Shown here piece after piece: positions 53,680-64,000 of a stretch of 64,000 nucleotides of DNA (position 1 is the first letter of the stretch; every line of letters begins with the position of its first letter). The position numbers and the translations under genes were made by a program. Below the pieces are notes generated by a model. That model was not told the DNA's origin. It was given only the letters and a program-made list of their open reading frames with translations, and ran no database searches. The DNA comes from Flavobacteriales bacterium (lineage in GTDB: Bacteria; Bacteroidota; Bacteroidia; Flavobacteriales_F; PHOS-HE28), in the NCBI GenBank assembly GCA_019638085.1, contig JAHBUL010000009.1:62001-126000 (forward strand), read 5' to 3'.

Positions 53680-54543
53680 ATGAGCGACACCGAGATCCAA
53701 GCCCTGATCACGTTGATCGATGACCCTGATGAGGATATTTACTGCCATGTGCGGGACCGCATCCTCTCACTGGGGCAACCGGTTGTTTCCGTGCTGGAGC
53801 ACGCTTGGGAACTCGATGAGCGGAACGATCTGTTCAGGAATCGCGTGGAGGACCTCTTGCACACGATCCACTTGGACATCACCTATAACCGACTGGTGGC
53901 CTGGCGGAAGACGGGTGGCGAGGAACTGCTGGAAGGCGTATTGGCCGTATGTCGTTACCGCTACGCGGAACTGGATGAACAGCGCGTAAGGGCCCGATTG
54001 GCCGCTGTACGGCAGGATATCTGGTTGGAACTGAACGACCACCTCACCGCATTCGAGAAGGTGCGCGTGTTCAACCACATCTTCTTCCAGGTACATGGCT
54101 TCAAGGGCAACAAGCGGAATTATCATGCTCCGCAGAACAGTTACATCAACGAAGTGCTGGAAAGCAAGAAGGGCAACCCGCTTTCCTTGGCGGTGATCTA
54201 CCAATTGATCGCAGAGGAATTGGAACTGCCCCTGCGCGGCGTGAACCTACCCAATCACTTTGTGCTGGCCTACATGGATGAGACCGGTGTAGCGGCCAGC
54301 GAATTCGGCCATGGGGATGTGCTCTTCTATGTGAATGCCTTCAGCCAAGGCGACATCCTCGGTAAGGCCGAGATCGATGAATTCCTCGGGAAGTTGGACC
54401 TTCCCCTTCATGAGAACTTCTACCAGCCCTGTACGAACCTGGACATCATCCGCCGCTTGCTGAACAACCTACTGAACAGCTATGAAAAGCTGAATGACCC
54501 TGATCGGGTGGAAGATCTGCAACGGTTGATCAGTGCACTCTAG
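53680..54543 (+). CDS. SirB1-like transglutaminase-fold protein
   Basis: The 287-residue protein has an N-terminal helical region ('LITLIDDPDEDIYCHVRDRILSLGQPVVSVLEHAWE') and the SirB1 signature 'YINEVLESKKGNPLSLAVIYQLIAEELELPLRGVNLPNHFVLAY' (in parts), ending in a helical tail. SirB1 proteins have a transglutaminase-like fold, but the Cys position is 'GNPLSLAVIYQ' without Cys, so catalysis is doubtful. Its 3' end overlaps the opposing sugar transferase by 14 bases. Confidence 0.88.
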   Translation: MSDTEIQALITLIDDPDEDIYCHVRDRILSLGQPVVSVLEHAWELDERNDLFRNRVEDLLHTIHLDITYNRLVAWRKTGGEELLEGVLAVCRYRYAELDEQRVRARLAAVRQDIWLELNDHLTAFEKVRVFNHIFFQVHGFKGNKRNYHAPQNSYINEVLESKKGNPLSLAVIYQLIAEELELPLRGVNLPNHFVLAYMDETGVAASEFGHGDVLFYVNAFSQGDILGKAEIDEFLGKLDLPLHENFYQPCTNLDIIRRLLNNLLNSYEKLNDPDRVEDLQRLISAL

Positions 54544-55141
54544 CGCTCCAGCCCCCGAAGACCTTGCCCACGGTGGCCAGGATGATGCGTAGGTCCAGCC
54601 CGAAATTGCGCTCCTGCACGTACTTCATATCCAACGCCAGCTTGGCAGGCATCACTTCTTCGATGTAGGCCCGCTCAGGATCCCCGGCACGTGCCAGCAT
54701 TTCGTTCTCATCGATGTAATTGATACTGGCCATGCCCGTGATGCCGGGCCTAACTGAAAGGATGATCCGTTCTTCGTTGGAATACATGGCGACATATTTC
54801 GGCACCTCCGGCCGTGGGCCCACCACGCTCATGTCCCCGATCAGCACATTCCACAGCTGCGGGAGTTCGTCCAACTTCGTCTTCCGCAGGAAATAACCGA
54901 TACCTGTAATACGGGGATCACGCCCCCCGATGGTGAGCTGCCCTTGGGCCTCGCTCCCGGGTCGCATGGTGCGGAATTTCAACAACCGAAAAGGACGCCC
55001 CTCCTTCCCTACCCTTACCTGCCTGAAAAAGGCGCCACCAGGGGAGGTGAATGCTACGGCCAGCGCAAAAAGAAGTAGCAGCGGCAACAGCACGAGCAAT
55101 AGCACCAATGCGAACACAATGTCGAAAGCGCGTTTCAACAT
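54530..55141 (-). CDS. undecaprenyl-phosphate sugar transferase (WcaJ/EpsL-type)
   Basis: The 203-residue protein has one N-terminal membrane helix (about residues 8-30) and the bacterial sugar transferase core: '[13 protein letters not shown]', '[33 protein letters not shown]' in parts, and '[11 protein letters not shown]'. It transfers the first sugar-phosphate to undecaprenyl phosphate, starting the glycan repeat unit. It follows the aminotransferase gene by three bases. Confidence 0.94.
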
Positions 55142-55144
55142 GAC

Positions 55145-56371
55145 CTAGGCCATCACCTCTTTCACTGCTGCCAATACTGCTGCGATCACCGTATCCACCT
55201 GCGCATCGGTAAGGTCGAAGTACACGGGTAGGCTGATCTCCCTGCTGTAGTGCATGTAGGTGTTGGGATAATCCTTGATGCGATATCCCACACCCTTGTA
55301 GTGGCCAAGCATCGGCAATGGAATGAAATGAACGTTCACGCTCACCTGCTTCGCCGCAATGGCCGTGATGATCGCGTCCCGTTGATCCTCCGTGGCCTCG
55401 TTCACACGCAACATGTACAAGTGGTAGCTGCTTTCTCTTTCATTGTCCTTCAGCAATGGCTGAATGAAGCGTGGATCATTCGCAAAAGCTGCGTTGTACC
55501 GCTCACAGATGGCCTTTCGCCTTGGCAACGTCTCGCTATCATAGCGCTCCAGTTCCACCATGCCGATGGCTGCTTGCAGGTCCGTCATGTTGCATTTCCA
55601 ACCGGGTGCTTCCACGTCATATCGCCAAGCGCCGGGGGTGGTCTTCGCTAGTGCATCCTTGCTTTGGCCGTGCAGGCTCATGGTGTTGAACCAAGCGTAC
55701 AATTCATCCGGGTTGAACGGCGGGGGTAGTGCAAATGCCAAGGCCCCACCTTCAGCCGTGGTGAGGTTCTTAACGGCATGGAAGCTGAAGCCCGTGATAT
55801 CGGCCTGGCTTCCCACCGGCTTGCCACCGATCCGGGCACCGAATGAATGGGCGGCATCGCTCAGCACCAACACCCGCCCCAAGCGCATTTGTGGATTCGT
55901 CCCCCCAACACGCAAGTTCACCGCCGGGGAGAACCAAGCGCAAGCATCCTCCGCCACCTTTACGATCTCCTCAATGCGAGCCGGCATCCCGCCGATGTCC
56001 ACCGGAATGATGCACTTCGTGCGGGAATTCATGGCATTGCGCACCGCCTCGGGATCCATGGTGAAATCGTCGAGCACATCCACCATCACCGGCTTCGCAC
56101 CCACGTGCTTCACAATGTTCGCAGTGGCACAGTAAGTATAGGCCGGCACGATCACCTCATCCCCCGGCCCGATCCCGAACCAGCGCAGGACCAGCTCACT
56201 TGCATTGGTCCAACTGTTCAGCGCGATCACGCGCTTCACTTCGCAATAGGCCGCCAAGCGCTTTTCGAACTCCTTGGTGCGCGGCCCCGTGGTGATCCAA
56301 CCGCTGCGGAGCACCTCCGTAACGGCCTGGATCGTGCGCTCATCGATGCGGGGGGGGGCGAAGGGGATCAT
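55145..56371 (-). CDS. DegT/DnrJ/EryC1/StrS nucleotide-sugar aminotransferase
   Basis: The 408-residue product starts 'MIPFAPPRIDERTIQAVTEVLRSGWITTGP' and has the PLP Lys in 'GFSFHAVKNLTTAEGG'. Its chemistry fits a DegT aminotransferase making 4-amino- or 3-amino-NDP-sugars. The start at 56371 is preferred over 56440 because it overlaps the upstream stop by four bases and a CAACTTCG box lies five bases before it. Confidence 0.94.
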   Translation of the reverse strand: MIPFAPPRIDERTIQAVTEVLRSGWITTGPRTKEFEKRLAAYCEVKRVIALNSWTNASELVLRWFGIGPGDEVIVPAYTYCATANIVKHVGAKPVMVDVLDDFTMDPEAVRNAMNSRTKCIIPVDIGGMPARIEEIVKVAEDACAWFSPAVNLRVGGTNPQMRLGRVLVLSDAAHSFGARIGGKPVGSQADITGFSFHAVKNLTTAEGGALAFALPPPFNPDELYAWFNTMSLHGQSKDALAKTTPGAWRYDVEAPGWKCNMTDLQAAIGMVELERYDSETLPRRKAICERYNAAFANDPRFIQPLLKDNERESSYHLYMLRVNEATEDQRDAIITAIAAKQVSVNVHFIPLPMLGHYKGVGYRIKDYPNTYMHYSREISLPVYFDLTDAQVDTVIAAVLAAVKEVMA

Positions 56372-57660
56372 GGGGTCGAAGTTGCGCAGGAGTTTGATCT
56401 TGGAGGCAAAGTTCGTCTTTCGTCCAAGGTGTAAAGCCATGCAAAGAATGCAAAGAACATCACCCCTGCCTGCACTTCCAACATGCTTTCGACGAGCCAG
56501 TTCAACGAATTCAACAGAAGGAAGTAGATCAGGAGCTTATCCTTCCGGCGGAATGCGAACACCAATGGAACCACGATCATGAGGATCAGGATCGCCGCAC
56601 CTGCAAGACCGAGCGCCACCGCAGTGTTCAAATACTGATCATGGGCATTCAGCTTTTTCGTCAATGGATCCACATAGCCACGCTCGGCATAAGCACGGAG
56701 CATTTCATCCTTCACGTCCCCTGTACCCACACCGAACCACGGCTGCTCAGAAATCAGAGCACCGGCAGCCCGCCACACCAGCTTTCTATCATCCGTGCTA
56801 TTCGCTGCGTCTTCCGTGGGAGCATCACCAACCAGCGCATTCACGACCTGTCCAACCCGCTCGTGTACATAATCCGTGGTGGAATACAACACCAAACCCA
56901 AAAGGAACGAGCCGACCAGACCAGTGACCATGGTCCTTCGTATTATGGGGTCTGACCATCGCTCCACCAAAATGGCGATGCCTGCCAAAAAAACGAGCAG
57001 CCATCCGGCTTTACTGGCACAAAGCGCGATACCCAAAAGGAGTATAATGCCAGCTGGAATGTTCCAGCGAGCACTCCCCCTTCCAACCGCATCCGGTCTC
57101 AACAAAAGGATCAAAGCCCACGTGAGGTACATCGCCATGTACGTGGGATGAATGAAAAGGGAGAATTCCGAGGAAAAGAACGGGGTGCTGAGGGCGAAGG
57201 CCGTCATGGGTTCCGCCCCCGGCTGGGACGTGGCAGATAGATTGAGGCTGAATGTGAGCAGAGCACGAAGTGTGCAGATCAAAACTGCCAGCACGTTGGC
57301 GAATATGAACCAGCGATGGACCTGCCCCACCTTGCTGAGAGGTCTACCGAAAAGAAAGACAAGGGGGAACACGAGCAGGGGGGCCTTGATGCCCAGATCC
57401 AACCCTGCGAAATCCATGTTCCTTGTCCAAACCAGGCCTATGAGGTGGAACAGGTATAACAGTAGCATCCAAAGCAATGGCCCATCCGGGCGAAGTTTGC
57501 CTCGCCTACTGCGGAAAGCCCGTGGCCATACAGCGAAACCGGTCAACAGGATGAGCAGTGGTGGTAGAAGTGCCGGAGCCAAAGGCAGGCACAGCGCCAT
57601 ACCGATAGCTGAGATGGACATTCCCCGGTCCAACAGGTAATCTCGTAGGCCTGGTTCCAT
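56368..57660 (-). CDS. O-antigen ligase family protein
   Basis: The 430-residue protein has about eleven membrane helices and a large periplasmic loop ('STTDYVHERVGQVVNALVGDAPTEDAANSTDDRKLVWRAAGALISEQPWFGVGTGDVKDE' in parts). That loop carries the 'RxxxW...PxFGxGxG' pattern of the Wzy/WaaL family. It joins glycan to a carrier or polymerises it. It overlaps the aminotransferase gene by four bases. Confidence 0.88.
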   Translation of the reverse strand: MEPGLRDYLLDRGMSISAIGMALCLPLAPALLPPLLILLTGFAVWPRAFRSRRGKLRPDGPLLWMLLLYLFHLIGLVWTRNMDFAGLDLGIKAPLLVFPLVFLFGRPLSKVGQVHRWFIFANVLAVLICTLRALLTFSLNLSATSQPGAEPMTAFALSTPFFSSEFSLFIHPTYMAMYLTWALILLLRPDAVGRGSARWNIPAGIILLLGIALCASKAGWLLVFLAGIAILVERWSDPIIRRTMVTGLVGSFLLGLVLYSTTDYVHERVGQVVNALVGDAPTEDAANSTDDRKLVWRAAGALISEQPWFGVGTGDVKDEMLRAYAERGYVDPLTKKLNAHDQYLNTAVALGLAGAAILILMIVVPLVFAFRRKDKLLIYFLLLNSLNWLVESMLEVQAGVMFFAFFAWLYTLDERRTLPPRSNSCATSTP

Positions 57661-57665
57661 CCCGT

Positions 57666-58682
57666 TCAGCGCGTCAATTTTTTGCTGTGTTCACCCGGCT
57701 TTCTCCGGAGCAGGACGAAAAGGACGATTCCTTTCAGATACCCCCAGCCGTATGCGATATGCATGGTAAGGAACGCCTTGATGATACCCGGAACATCTCC
57801 TCGCATGGTGGAAGCCTTCATGGCAGATACCGTGGCCAATGCTACATAGAGCAGCAGCAGGGCAAGTAGCGGTATTCCCAGCATGGGTAGGAGGGCTGCT
57901 ACGATGGGCGCACCGAAAAGGAAAAGGACCAGGAATGCGGGAACCAGCTGGCGGAACGTGGTGACCGTGCGATGCTTACGATTCACATACACCTTCCAAT
58001 ATCCGTACTGCTGGTATTGCTGGAAGAGCCGTATGTAAGAGGCCCGCACGTAGTACTTGGAGCGAATGGCGCGGCTTAGGAAGATCTTGAATCCTCCCTG
58101 CGTGACCCGGAAATTGAACTCATCATCCTGATTACGCACCAAGTCCTCATCAAACCAGCCGACGCGTTCGAAAACTTCTCGCCTGTACGCGCCGAAAGCA
58201 ACCGTATCCACATAGCCATCCCGCATCCCTGTCCGGAAGTGAGCCCCCCCCACCCCGAAGGGATGCCCCATTGCCGCGCAGATCCTTCGTGACACGGGTC
58301 CCTCGGAGACATTCTCGATGATTCCACCTGCACACCCTACTGTCGGGTCGCGATCCAGCACATCCATATTCCCACGGATGAAAAGCGGGTCGATCTCCGC
58401 GTGTGCTCCGAGGATGATGCCCACATCGAAAGGCAGGCTCTTCAATCCTAAGTTCAATGCCTGGGGGGTCGTGCGTTCGAGGTTGTCGATCAAATGCACG
58501 GATGGGTTTTCCCGGGCAAGGGCAGTAACGATGGCACGGGTGTCATCTTCACTCATCCCGTCACAGACCAATATGGACACTTTGCATCCAGCGGTGTCTG
58601 CAGCTAGGATCGACCCGATACAAGCCGCGATGTATTGCTGCTCGTTCCGGCAGGGAATGACAATGCTCACCTTACGCTCCAT
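57666..58682 (-). CDS. GT-A family 2 glycosyltransferase, membrane-linked
   Basis: The 338-residue protein begins 'MERKVSIVIPCRNEQQYIAACIGSIL', with 'ILVCDGMSEDDTRAIVTALARE' and 'ILGAHAEIDPLFI' in the DxD position, as in GT2. Three C-terminal membrane helices follow. It probably adds a sugar to the lipid-linked glycan. It overlaps the polymerase gene by 11 bases. Confidence 0.9.
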   Translation of the reverse strand: MERKVSIVIPCRNEQQYIAACIGSILAADTAGCKVSILVCDGMSEDDTRAIVTALARENPSVHLIDNLERTTPQALNLGLKSLPFDVGIILGAHAEIDPLFIRGNMDVLDRDPTVGCAGGIIENVSEGPVSRRICAAMGHPFGVGGAHFRTGMRDGYVDTVAFGAYRREVFERVGWFDEDLVRNQDDEFNFRVTQGGFKIFLSRAIRSKYYVRASYIRLFQQYQQYGYWKVYVNRKHRTVTTFRQLVPAFLVLFLFGAPIVAALLPMLGIPLLALLLLYVALATVSAMKASTMRGDVPGIIKAFLTMHIAYGWGYLKGIVLFVLLRRKPGEHSKKLTR

Positions 58683-60144
58683 GGGATCCTACGTGTTCTT
58701 TCCTGAGCATTTTTGCAACAGTCGCGGAAAGCAGCACCACCGCTATGGGGATCCCAAAGCCTTCCACCAGCAAAGCCTTGAAGGTTTCCGGGCCATCACG
58801 CACCAGGATCGGCAAATAAGCGATCCAGCAGGACGTTCCCATGATGGAGATGACCTTCATGGTGATCGAATTACCGATGGGTCGCGCACTCCACCTCATC
58901 AGCAGCCCCCATATCAGGCCCAAGAACAGACCTCCGATTGCCACCATCACCCATCCCCCGTTCATATACCATCCTGCAGCTTGGTGGATCGTGTACCCTT
59001 GACCCACCACCAACCCCGCTTGGGCGGCATACTCATCATATGCCGAAGCTGGGCGATCCGCCTTCAGCACACGAGGTATCACGGACGCGACCAAGTACTT
59101 GGCACTGACCCCCTGAACGGGTTGCACTTCTTCGCGGCAGATGCCGTAAAGCGAGAAATGCGCAGCAAACATCTCGTTACTTAGAAAAGCCTGTCCCAAG
59201 CGCATTACAAACCCTGTTGGCTTCGGACCTCTAGGGACATGCTCAATGATCGGGACACTAAAAGGTTCAACTTCGGGGGCTTTCTGCACCTCCAAGGAGC
59301 TGATCTCCTGAAGGCTGGCTCCCCTGATCTTTCCGGTAATGAATAAGGGGATCATGCAAAGCCCCAAGTATAACACGAGCCGGCGGGCATCAGGCCGCAC
59401 CGAATTGACGAAGAACAGCAGTGTGCCCAGCACCATGGCCATCACAAGTTCATGCTTGTTGCCCAGCATCATCAGGTACAACTCCAAGCATATCAACAGT
59501 ACCGGATAAGCCCAAGCTGCCCATGCTTGTCCATGAACGGAGAAATACCGCGGGCGCTTGGAACTGAGGTAGAAAGACCAGCCCAGTAGCACGCTGAAGA
59601 CGGCCATTTCGTTGAATATGGCATGAAGAGTAGACCCCGCGAACGCCGTGGAGCGAGTCACGAGATAGATGGACTCCTCCTGTTCAAATGCCAGCAATAC
59701 CAAAGGACGAACCAAGATGAAGCTACATATCGAGGCGATCACGGCGACCAACATGAATATCCGGTGATCAAGCTGTAGCATGGGCATCCGCGCTGCAGCT
59801 GTGCTAACGGGGGAGCGGCTCATGAACAATACACCCGCTAATATGGCTAGAGTGAAGAGGCCATACCCCGCAAGACTGACCAAATAACAATGATCCAGTT
59901 CGAAGGGGAACATCTTCTCCATCAAATAGTAGTAGCCCAATCCGATCTTATAGCCTGGGTAGCCGCTCAGGGCATCACCAATGAAGAACCAAGCCCCGAG
60001 AAAAGTCCAGAAATAAAGGATGCTCATCCCTACCAGGAACGACCACTGCCGTGTTTTCCGAAGCACGAGCACTATGCCCACGCAGATGAGAACGGTTATG
60101 CCGACCAAGAGCAGGTACGCCATCATTCCCGGTACCATGTACAA
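58672..60144 (-). CDS. oligosaccharide repeat-unit (O-antigen) polymerase
   Basis: The 490-residue protein has about twelve membrane helices and the long loop typical of Wzy polymerases ('LGQAFLSNEMFAAHFSLYGICREEVQPVQGVSAKYLVASVIPRVLKADRPASAYDEY' in parts). Wzy proteins share little sequence, so the call rests on topology, length and the locus. It overlaps the fusion gene by 22 bases. Confidence 0.8.
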   Translation of the reverse strand: MYMVPGMMAYLLLVGITVLICVGIVLVLRKTRQWSFLVGMSILYFWTFLGAWFFIGDALSGYPGYKIGLGYYYLMEKMFPFELDHCYLVSLAGYGLFTLAILAGVLFMSRSPVSTAAARMPMLQLDHRIFMLVAVIASICSFILVRPLVLLAFEQEESIYLVTRSTAFAGSTLHAIFNEMAVFSVLLGWSFYLSSKRPRYFSVHGQAWAAWAYPVLLICLELYLMMLGNKHELVMAMVLGTLLFFVNSVRPDARRLVLYLGLCMIPLFITGKIRGASLQEISSLEVQKAPEVEPFSVPIIEHVPRGPKPTGFVMRLGQAFLSNEMFAAHFSLYGICREEVQPVQGVSAKYLVASVIPRVLKADRPASAYDEYAAQAGLVVGQGYTIHQAAGWYMNGGWVMVAIGGLFLGLIWGLLMRWSARPIGNSITMKVISIMGTSCWIAYLPILVRDGPETFKALLVEGFGIPIAVVLLSATVAKMLRKEHVGSHGA

Positions 60145-62381
60145 TTTTTCAGCAACACGGCCACCCGTTGATCCAGAGATGCTGACGTGTAGCCCTGCGC
60201 TATTAGCACATCCCTTCCATTGGACCTTTGATCCACTGCGAGTACCTGAAGGATCGCATCGGCAAATGCCTCGGTCCGTTGTTCCACGATGGCCCCGGGG
60301 TACACACCTGCGACCCGTTCTACCACATCACCAACATCGTTACTGACCACCGGCACGTTGCACGCCATGGCTTCCTTTACCATGGTAGGACTTCCTTCTG
60401 CATCGCTGCAAAGCAACACCAGATTGGAGGCATTGATCCAGAACGGCATTTCTGAGGGGCCTACCCCTCCCCGGAGTGCTTCCAAGCGGGCATCCGGTAA
60501 TGACTCGTTCACCAATGCCATTGCCCCTTCTGCGAGGTCAAGCCGTTTAAGTTTCGGGTTTCCTGCGTTGAAAAGCACGACGGCTCCTGAAGTCCAGCCC
60601 AAGCGCGCCCGACATTCCTCCCGATCCATGGGAAGGAACTCCTGCGTATCAGTTCCTATTGGAATAACCTCTACGTCATCACGGCGCCACCAAAGCCGAT
60701 CGCGCAATCCTTGAGAGACACATATGATCCCAGTGGCACCCAGAGCGGCGAACTGGGAGAAGATCCTACCGAACAGGTCCCGGCAAAGTCCATCTGTGGG
60801 TGTCTTGTTCAGATCGCTTCCATGGAACGTGACCACCAAAGGGCAGCGCACGGTGAGGAGTGTAAATAAGGCAGTGACCGTTCCATAGTGTACATGTACC
60901 ACATCCGGCCGGAACATCTGTTCCACTTTTTTCAATTCCCCACGAGCTTTCCATAGTCCTCCCAGAGATGTACGGCTGGTCAGCATGTACTTTTCCACCT
61001 TATAGCCCGGCATCTTACGGATCGCCTCGGCCTGCCGGTGGGAGAACGGCATTCCTGCGGATGCAGGATCTCCCGGGATCACCACGAGCACGCGTAGGGC
61101 ATGATCTGTTGCATGGCCCTTGCTGCGCAGATCATGGCGCATCCATGTGATGCTTCGCCAGGTTAGCCATGCCAACAGAGCGAGAGGAACCACAACAGTA
61201 CCAATTAGGGCAACCGGCAGAATGGGCCAAACCCAAACGTATAAAACGGTGCCCAACCAGAATAAACCGAATGCAGCCAACAAGTTGAAGGTGTTTCGGG
61301 GAGCTGTGTAATAGGCGTCGAGAATACTGCGGAGGGAAACGAACACGCCCATGAAAACGGAACCAACGAAAATGATGCGGCAGGTAGTTTCCATTGCCGC
61401 ACCCGTATCACCCAAATACCATGTCAATAAGGGAGTAGCAATCAGTTGGAACACCGCCACCAAGAGGAGTCCACTTATCAATGCGGTCCACGCCACCCGC
61501 AGTGTACGTTGCTCAAGCTCCGGCCATCGTTTCTTGGCCAGCATGTTGGAAGCGGCAGGCAACAGCAAAAGACTCAAGGGCGAATACGCGGATGCAGCAA
61601 GATTCACCAAGGTGAGCCCGAATGCAACTTGGGCACCCATGGCAAGCCCTTCCACTTGGTTCACAATGTATACTGGCAGGGTGAGCAGACTGGCGAGAAC
61701 CAGATCTCCGGGCACACGTGGCAGTCCGTATCGGAGCAATCGCGAGCGCTCCTTCGCAGGCAGTAATGTCCTTGTGGAGAACAGGACTGGTAACAGACCG
61801 ATCAAACTGAAGATGATCCAAGCCGCAGCCATTGTCCACAGGACCGCGATCAGGTCCGTCCCCCACCACATGGCAGCGTTGGGCACTATGGCCAAGTTCA
61901 ACACCTGCAACAGATTTGCCTTGCCCATTTCCATGCTCCCACGCCAGAAACTATAGATCACGGAGTGCATAAGCAACCCCACGGTTAGTAGCCCAATGGG
62001 CAATGTGAGGTCAGCGTGCGCCGCATCGCCGAAAAAGAGCATGGATAACTGCTCTTGAAATACTGCACACAAGAGCACGATGCCCGCGCTCACTGCTGCC
62101 AGGGGTCTCACCACCGCATGCAATAATCCTACGCGTTCCTCCCTTGTGGCAGCGATCGCGACAAAGCGAACCAATGCTACCCCCAGTCCGAAAAGAAGGA
62201 TGGTCTGCAGAAAGGAAATAGTGCGGCGTACAACGGTATAGGGTTCGAAGCCTTCAGTTCCGAACTGGAGGACCGCCAGCTTATAGACCAGAACGGTGCC
62301 TACGAGCACGAATCCTTCTGCCGCGTACGTAGTAACGTGAACGCGTTGATTCGAGGAGAGTCCGATCCGTGTGATCCTCAT
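60123..62381 (-). CDS. fusion of Wzx-like flippase and GT-B glycosyltransferase
   Basis: The 752-residue protein has two parts. Residues 1 to about 425 hold about twelve membrane helices with the polysaccharide-flippase pattern ('YGLPRVPGDLVLASLLTLPVYIV' and 'RIIFVGSVFMGVFVSLRSILDAYYTAPRN'). Residues about 430-752 are a complete GT-B transferase: 'PDVVHVHYGTVTALFTLLT', 'VEVIPIGTDTQEF' and the donor-binding 'EGSPTMVKEAMACNVPVVSNDVGDVVE' (Glu-x7-Glu). The start may be the ATG at 62399, six codons earlier. The two activities are normally separate proteins. Confidence 0.9.
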   Translation of the reverse strand: MRITRIGLSSNQRVHVTTYAAEGFVLVGTVLVYKLAVLQFGTEGFEPYTVVRRTISFLQTILLFGLGVALVRFVAIAATREERVGLLHAVVRPLAAVSAGIVLLCAVFQEQLSMLFFGDAAHADLTLPIGLLTVGLLMHSVIYSFWRGSMEMGKANLLQVLNLAIVPNAAMWWGTDLIAVLWTMAAAWIIFSLIGLLPVLFSTRTLLPAKERSRLLRYGLPRVPGDLVLASLLTLPVYIVNQVEGLAMGAQVAFGLTLVNLAASAYSPLSLLLLPAASNMLAKKRWPELEQRTLRVAWTALISGLLLVAVFQLIATPLLTWYLGDTGAAMETTCRIIFVGSVFMGVFVSLRSILDAYYTAPRNTFNLLAAFGLFWLGTVLYVWVWPILPVALIGTVVVPLALLAWLTWRSITWMRHDLRSKGHATDHALRVLVVIPGDPASAGMPFSHRQAEAIRKMPGYKVEKYMLTSRTSLGGLWKARGELKKVEQMFRPDVVHVHYGTVTALFTLLTVRCPLVVTFHGSDLNKTPTDGLCRDLFGRIFSQFAALGATGIICVSQGLRDRLWWRRDDVEVIPIGTDTQEFLPMDREECRARLGWTSGAVVLFNAGNPKLKRLDLAEGAMALVNESLPDARLEALRGGVGPSEMPFWINASNLVLLCSDAEGSPTMVKEAMACNVPVVSNDVGDVVERVAGVYPGAIVEQRTEAFADAILQVLAVDQRSNGRDVLIAQGYTSASLDQRVAVLLKNCTWYRE

Positions 62382-62382
62382 T

Positions 62383-64000
62383 TCACGGCTTCGTCTCATT
62401 CGCCCCCTTATGCAAGGCCACCTCCCGCAAAAAGCTCAGCGTGCCTTCCATGCTCCCGTTGCCGTCCTCACCCAAGGGCAACACGGCCACTTCACTTTGT
62501 CTCCACCACAGATGGTCCTTCACTTGCTCATCCGAGCAGATAATGCCGGAAGCGAAAAATGCGGCCACTTGGCTGAACAAGCCTCCCATCCATGGCTTTG
62601 CGATGCCCTTTACCTCTCGCCGGTCCAGATCATCACCCATGAAAGTGACCACCACCGGCACTGTGCTGGTAAGCACACCGAAAAGGGCGGCCACGGAGCC
62701 ATAGTGAACGTGTACGGCATCCGGTCGCTTTTCCCGAAGGAGTTTTTTGAACCTTCTGCGGGCCGCCCACAGTCGCATGAATGAGGTTCGGCTTTCCAAG
62801 TGGAACAGTGTGACCTCGCAGCCCATATCGGCCAATGCTCGTGCTTGCTTCTTGGAGGCGGCGAAGGTGGTACCCTCAGCGCGGTCGGGGATCAGCACCA
62901 CAAGCCTCAATTCACCTGTGGCCCTGGTGCTCAACCGCCTCAACTCACTACGCACGTATCGCACATCGCGCCATGTGGCCCAGCCCAGCCAGAACATGGA
63001 CAGGACCAGCACCACGCCCATGGTGTACCAGGGTGTGGGTATGGCCAAATGCACAACGCTTCCCAGCAACAGGATGCCAAAGGCTGCGGTCAAGTTCATG
63101 CCGTTGCGCGGTGTGTGGAAGTAGGCGTCCAGCACACTGCGCATACCGTTGAAAAAGGCAAAGGGCAAGGCACCGATGAAGATGATGCGGGCCATCGGGA
63201 TGTAGGCGGCACCAGAAGGCCCCAGATAGGCCAGCAACAACGGTTCCGAGAGCAGTTCGAAGCCCAGCATGAGCGCTACCGATGCGGCCAGTATTACCCA
63301 GGTCATCCGGCCGATGCTCTGTTCCAAGGAAGCATGTTCGCCAGCAGCCAGGCGCCCGGCCGTAGCAGGAAGCAGGAGCAGCGCCACAGGGGAGAACGCT
63401 GCTGCGGCCAGGTTCAACAAAGTGGCACCGAAGCCCACTTCGCCACTGACATCAAGCCCATGTGTACGCAGGGCCACATAGCCGGGCACCGTGAGCAGGG
63501 CACCCAAAGCGATATCACCCGGTACGCGCGGCAATCCGTAGCGCAGCAGTTCGCTTCGCTCCCGCCGCATCTTCTTCTTGCGCGGGGCCATGATCGCAGG
63601 CACGATGGAGAGCAGCGGGGTGGCCACCCATGCAATCCCGGTAGCCCATAGCACAGTGACCATGTCCGACCACAGTAGGAATGCTGCGCACGGCGCGATC
63701 GCCAGCACCATCAACTGGACGGCATTGGCGGACACCATGGCCTGCTTCCCACGGAGGAAACCGTAGGCAACACCGTGCAGGCTGATGCCCACCGTCATCA
63801 ATGCCAATGGAGGAATGAGTTCCGCACTGGCCTCCGAGCCGAACACAGCCCATGCCAATGGCTTGGCCAGAAGCACCGACAGCACCATGGTCAACACACT
63901 GAGGGGTACCACCCAGGCCAAAGCACCGCGTAGATAGCCACGCTGCTGTTCGGGCTCCCGGCTCATGGCCACGAAGCGGGTAAGACCTACCATGGCGCCC
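62383..64000 (-). CDS. paralogous flippase-GT fusion with truncated transferase, N-terminus outside window
   Basis: The frame is open to the window edge, so the N-terminus is missing; at least 538 codons are visible. The membrane part is clearly paralogous to its neighbour ('YGLPRVPGDIALGALLTVPGYV' and 'RIIFIGALPFAFFNGMRSVLDAYFHTPRN'). The C-terminal part has only the first GT-B half ('RPDAVHVHYGSVAALFGVLTSTVPVVVTF' through 'EVAVLPLGEDG') and ends with an unrelated tail 'LREVALHKGANETKP'. It lacks the donor-binding half with the Glu-x7-Glu motif. It lies one base before its paralogue. Confidence 0.85.
   Translation of the reverse strand, partial: GAMVGLTRFVAMSREPEQQRGYLRGALAWVVPLSVLTMVLSVLLAKPLAWAVFGSEASAELIPPLALMTVGISLHGVAYGFLRGKQAMVSANAVQLMVLAIAPCAAFLLWSDMVTVLWATGIAWVATPLLSIVPAIMAPRKKKMRRERSELLRYGLPRVPGDIALGALLTVPGYVALRTHGLDVSGEVGFGATLLNLAAAAFSPVALLLLPATAGRLAAGEHASLEQSIGRMTWVILAASVALMLGFELLSEPLLLAYLGPSGAAYIPMARIIFIGALPFAFFNGMRSVLDAYFHTPRNGMNLTAAFGILLLGSVVHLAIPTPWYTMGVVLVLSMFWLGWATWRDVRYVRSELRRLSTRATGELRLVVLIPDRAEGTTFAASKKQARALADMGCEVTLFHLESRTSFMRLWAARRRFKKLLREKRPDAVHVHYGSVAALFGVLTSTVPVVVTFMGDDLDRREVKGIAKPWMGGLFSQVAAFFASGIICSDEQVKDHLWWRQSEVAVLPLGEDGNGSMEGTLSFLREVALHKGANETKP

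Follow-up and report, generated by a model that had tools for sequence, protein, structure and literature searches.

Can a Wzx-type flippase and a GT-B glycosyltransferase be one protein, and what would such a protein do? We asked this of a locus in the window analysed here, a stretch of 64,000 nucleotides from a Flavobacteriales genome, where an earlier note had described the two joined in a single open frame. Both parts belong to known families, and neither a flippase-GT fusion nor a half-GT flippase family was described in the open-access literature that we searched. Our preferred reading, to which we give a probability of about 0.6, is that the protein, FlipB::GT4, is a bifunctional product of a polysaccharide operon, in which the GT4 part adds a late sugar and the tethered flippase exports, and that the fusion goes back to a single event in the common ancestor of the genus. 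Coordinates of the features are collected in Table 1.

Table 1. Features of the fusion locus (window coordinates; residue numbers refer to the protein).
Feature	Position	Strand	Evidence
FlipB::GT4, flippase-glycosyltransferase fusion, 758 aa	60123..62399	minus	ORF, Pfam, AlphaFold2 model, Foldseek
Wzx/MOP flippase part, 12 TM, residues 15-429	61113..62357	minus	Pfam, hydropathy, model helices, WzxE match, conserved Arg/Asp
GT-B N-terminal (acceptor-side) Rossmann domain, residues 433-588, T-F-H526-G-S-D motif	60636..61103	minus	Pfam, alignment, model
GT-B C-terminal (donor-side) Rossmann domain, residues 590-752, K618-R619 and E668-x7-E676	60144..60632	minus	Pfam, alignment, model
c10, multi-TM, 490 aa, overlaps end of FlipB::GT4 gene	58672..60144	minus	Position, gene order
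GT2 glycosyltransferase	57666..58682	minus	Pfam, NCBIfam, gene order
O-antigen ligase/Wzy_C family protein	56368..57660	minus	Pfam, gene order
DegT/PseC-like aminotransferase	55145..56440	minus	Pfam, NCBIfam, gene order
Bacterial sugar transferase (phosphoglycosyl transferase, starts lipid-linked sugar)	54530..55141	minus	Pfam, NCBIfam, gene order
FlipA, tandem flippase paralogue with GT-B N-half only, 622 aa	62383..64000, onward to about G000:C36:126252	minus	ORF, Pfam, alignment, model
Half GT-B of FlipA (Rossmann N-domain; MGDD replaces HGSD)	62470..62904	minus	Pfam, alignment, model
Conserved C-terminal helix of FlipA, akin to last helix of some relatives' full GT4s	62413..62451	minus	Model, helix comparison

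One reading frame encodes a flippase and a GT-B transferase

The FlipB::GT4 frame runs without an internal stop from either of two start codons, ATG 62399 (758 aa) or ATG 62381 (752 aa), and terminates at 60123. Read on the plus strand, 60123-62381 has stops throughout and no open frame for the fusion. The flippase part matched PF01943 (Polysacc_synt) at residues 47-254 with 23.7 bits (E 3.7e-5), below the cut-off of 28.2, and it retains the charged residues of the flippase family (R58, R59, R153, R228, D232, R357 and D361). Both GT-B halves scored far over the Pfam cut-off (PF13439 at 437-586; PF13692/PF00534 at 644-722), and a profile search of the PDB with FlipB::GT4 returned matches that include BshA, MshA, PglA and PimA. 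The catalytic features of GT4 enzymes are kept, namely the T-F-H526-G-S-D loop, K618/R619 and E668-x7-E676, and the C-domain block is conserved among the aligned complete relatives.

An AlphaFold2 model built with an alignment of 58 relatives had a mean pLDDT of 93.8 and a pTM of 0.89. When it was compared with known structures by Foldseek, the flippase part matched inward-facing WzxE (9g9p, TMt 0.79), and the transferase part matched MshA, BshA, PglA, WbnH and PimA with TMt mostly of 0.6-0.72. The C-terminal part is predicted to be two Rossmann domains of the GT-B type, and the flippase part to be a 12-TM MOP fold with N and C termini in the cytosol. Taken together, the frame, the Pfam matches to both halves, the predicted folds and the Foldseek matches bear out what the earlier note had claimed, that a membrane flippase-like domain leads into a complete GT-B transferase in one open frame, which lies on the minus strand.

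Hydropathy across the alignment gave 12 TM segments with positive-inside loops, and the transferase should therefore be cytosolic. This agrees with the side of the membrane proposed earlier and with WzxE, whose N and C termini are both cytoplasmic (PMC11706664). In the model, TM12 is a continuous helix (394-429) that runs out of the membrane into the cytosol, and a linker of about five residues joins it to the first GT strand (435-442). WzxE ends in an essential Arg-rich tail near the lumen entrance (PMC11706664), and the GT is attached in the model at this same site, the cytosolic end of TM12. Because the module hangs there, the GT product would be released beside the flippase entrance.

The fusion is conserved in an independent genome

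We next considered whether FlipB::GT4 could be two separate genes joined by an assembly or sequencing error, since the source assembly of the window is a draft in 36 contigs. A search for the same architecture in related genomes found it in an independent MAG, G006 (CALMYC010000344.1), which carries the full fusion in an equally uninterrupted ORF of 753-755 aa with 73% identity to FlipB::GT4. No stop or frameshift was found at residues 400-450 of our ORF, and the same junction occurs in the FlipA-type paralogues of about 20 genomes. Between the source genome (G000) and G006, dN/dS was about 0.07 for the flippase, 0.11 for GT-N and 0.12 for GT-C, rough values with dS near saturation, and all three parts are under strong purifying selection. 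Because G006 holds the same fusion at 73% identity and selection acts on every part, we rejected a frameshift or assembly artefact, to which we leave next to no probability.

The genus set comprised 45 genomes, in which order and family are the same group as the genus. A contig scan with the single protein as query found nothing, but a relative was present in 32 of the 45. The full fusion is confirmed in two of them, G000 and G006, and an uninterrupted half-GT flippase (FlipA) is found in about 20; a third flippase lineage, FlipC, occurs in G012 and G067, and the copies of four genomes (G008, G025, G033 and G026) have a decayed half-GT tail. Since relatives manage without the full fusion, tethering is not required, and the GT tail is dispensable in G021, because its FlipB tail has decayed (GT-N tree branch 5.27). 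Two contigs, G012:C90 (L115) and G022:C97 (L128), stop inside the same GT gene, and further full fusions are possible there.

Outside the genus, a search of 395 genomes of the class and 396 of the phylum with the family profile found no flippase-GT fusion; the members of the flippase family there were all free proteins, about 417-448 aa long. Thus every relative searched beyond the genus agrees with the premise that flippases and GT-B enzymes are normally separate. A scan of 118 genomes with PF01943 likewise gave no credible flippase-GT fusion among the matches listed. It did give one long ORF of about 796-806 aa in G479 (L199:2208-4598, minus strand), a DegT aminotransferase with a flippase, which we did not accept as a true fusion because an odd middle stretch suggests a frameshift.

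The upstream paralogue carries half of a GT-B domain

FlipB::GT4 is adjoined upstream by FlipA, which the earlier note did not mention. The flippase parts of the two are about 40% identical, and 538 of the 622 residues of FlipA lie inside the window, with the remainder further along the contig. Its GT part ends after the N-terminal Rossmann domain. The FlipA model (pLDDT 93.1, pTM 0.90) has a complete Rossmann fold as the half domain, followed by a conserved last helix, and its top Foldseek match was WzxE (TMt 0.75). The NCBIfam WzxE model matched FlipA with E 3.7e-8, far under the cut-off, and a PDB sequence search with FlipA alone as query gave no useful match. This half-GT flippase is the genus-wide form, and it is more unusual than the full fusion.

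We asked what the half domain could be. A decaying pseudogene was rejected: dN/dS among FlipA copies was about 0.23 for the half domain and 0.15 for the flippase, which together with the confident model argues that the half domain is relaxed yet constrained; decay is marked only in FlipB of G021 and in the copies of G008, G025, G033 and G026. A split GT-B enzyme, with FlipA as one of its parts, seems unlikely as well: when a stand-alone GT-B C-half was sought by profile in nine genomes, one of them a single contig, the only matches were ORFs of at least 363 aa, and therefore no split partner of the same family was found for FlipA. Nor did we take the H-to-M change in the FlipA motif as proof of inactivity, because the complete GT4s of Acidobacteria-type genomes (L156, L159, L170, L174, L175 and L176) also carry MGDD in place of the usual HGSD, so that the His is not universal.

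The last helix of FlipA resembles that of the GT4s of G067, G022 and G023 (p under 0.01) and shows no resemblance to the last helix of FlipB. Because the tail resembles the GT4s of three relatives and not FlipB, an internal deletion of the C-domain, as opposed to truncation, is only suggested as the origin of FlipA.

The GT4 belongs to one polysaccharide operon, fused or free

FlipB::GT4 sits in a polyprenyl-linked polysaccharide cluster, as judged from Pfam, NCBIfam and gene order. In G000 and G006 the order is FlipA (half), FlipB::GT4, c10, GT2, ligase, DegT and initiating transferase. G021 has FlipA (half), FlipB with the decayed tail, c10, GT2 and a free GT4, and a second contig, which begins inside GT4, continues with ligase, DegT and initiating transferase. 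The order in G067 is FlipC (half), c10, GT2, free GT4, ligase, DegT and initiating transferase, and G026 and G023 have the same order but without the flippase. In the outgroups L132 and L136 (Flavobacteriales/Crocinitomicaceae MAGs) the order is flippase, c10, GT4, ligase and GT2, and in a further outgroup, G227 (L193), flippase and GT4 are separate frames that overlap by about 10 bp. The c10 protein, which had no match in Pfam or NCBIfam, is syntenic in the related clusters, outgroups included, and by its position is probably an undescribed Wzy-like polymerase. The GT4 thus belongs to one polysaccharide operon, fused in G000 and G006 and free in G021, G067, G026 and G023, and this is the strongest evidence that flippase and GT4 serve one pathway.

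Evolutionary history of the fusion

In the flippase tree the genus is monophyletic (100/99) and splits into FlipB, FlipC and FlipA, with a GT tail attached at one and the same point in all three lineages. In the GT-N tree, whose deep nodes have moderate support, the GT-N domains of the genus form one group (87/92), in which FlipB and the majority of free GT4s are basal and the FlipA halves derived. Most likely, to judge from these trees, a single event in the ancestor of the genus fused a flippase gene to the GT4 gene beside it, and most copies then lost the C-half. FlipA-type copies would have shed the C-domain, which binds the donor. Their remaining N-half would be a module that still folds but is presumably non-catalytic, and it may recognise the lipid-linked substrate.

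A different history is that the full fusion is not ancestral and that the GT-B of FlipB is a recent reacquisition, through recombination of a half-GT flippase with the free GT4 of the operon. Such free GT4s are present in the same operon of G021 and G067, the former with a decayed half tail on FlipB and a free GT4 downstream, and the GT-N of FlipB is 54-59% identical to free GT4s and about 45% identical to the FlipA halves. The GT-N tree, however, places FlipB, the G021 GT4 and the other free GT4s on separate basal branches, and we consider a recent regain possible but doubtful. It concerns ancestry, and is compatible with the function proposed below.

A proposed role in coupling sugar addition to export

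What does FlipB::GT4 do? We propose that it is a bifunctional membrane protein in a Wzx/Wzy-type surface-polysaccharide operon. The neighbouring initiating transferase and GT2 would build an undecaprenyl-linked repeat unit, to which the cytosolic GT4/GT-B module would add a sugar, probably late or last, and the tethered flippase would then carry the finished unit across the membrane. Catalysis, substrate and coupling are what we infer here; that the last sugar is added in step with export, as the earlier note suggested, is plausible. Wzx flippases show a preference for cognate O units, and some discriminate by the terminal sugar (PMC6436433). Because Wzx favours cognate units, a tethered late transferase would raise the local concentration of its product and disfavour the flipping of unfinished units.

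It could also be that two adjacent operon genes were joined neutrally, with both activities present and a tether that adds only equal amounts and co-localisation. In the outgroups the flippase and GT4 genes lie side by side or a short way apart, with an overlap in L193, and close relatives have the split form. Neutral joining is nevertheless rather unlikely in our judgement, given that the helix from TM12 towards the GT is continuous and the linker short in a confident model, that the fusion was retained across the divergence to G006, where dS is near saturation, and that the GT tail was retained in three flippase lineages.

More tentatively, and with the chances against it, a genus-wide family of Wzx flippases may have captured the acceptor domain of a GT-B and made it a built-in substrate reader, in which case FlipB, with the complete enzyme, would add the sugar and hand over the unit, and FlipA, left with the acceptor-binding half, would recognise the finished unit and gate flipping. 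An acceptor-binding half without a donor domain would fit such a reader or gate role. It is unsettled how Wzx flippases distinguish a complete sugar unit from an incomplete one, and the reader model, if true, would give a physical basis for Wzx quality control towards complete repeat units. The FlipB fusion, the half-GT paralogues and the split-gene relatives form a natural series for testing the coupling of synthesis to export.

Comparison with known systems

FlipB shares with the Wzx/MOP flippases WzxE and MurJ the 12 TM segments, the fold and the cytosolic termini, all as predicted, and the Wzx/Wzy-type cluster. WzxE ends in its short Arg-rich tail, whereas TM12 leads on into a GT-B in FlipB and into half of one in FlipA. 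With the GT4 GT-B enzymes PglA, BshA, MshA, WbnH and PimA, FlipB::GT4 shares two Rossmann domains, the HGSD-type loop, and the Lys/Arg and E-x7-E of the C-domain. Those enzymes are soluble or peripheral membrane proteins, whereas the GT4 module of FlipB is covalently held beneath a flippase. For GT-B half domains such as that of FlipA, the nearest precedent is the split enzymes Alg13/Alg14 and EpsE/EpsF, whose N- and C-halves lie on different chains with the N-half as membrane anchor (PMC4973528). Unlike these, FlipA is without a stand-alone C-half of its family in the nine genomes. The system closest to the proposed way of working of FlipB::GT4 is different in its folds and substrates, which are unrelated. 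This is MprF, in which a synthase and a flippase in one polypeptide modify a lipid and then flip it, so that modification and flipping are combined in one protein as we propose for FlipB::GT4.
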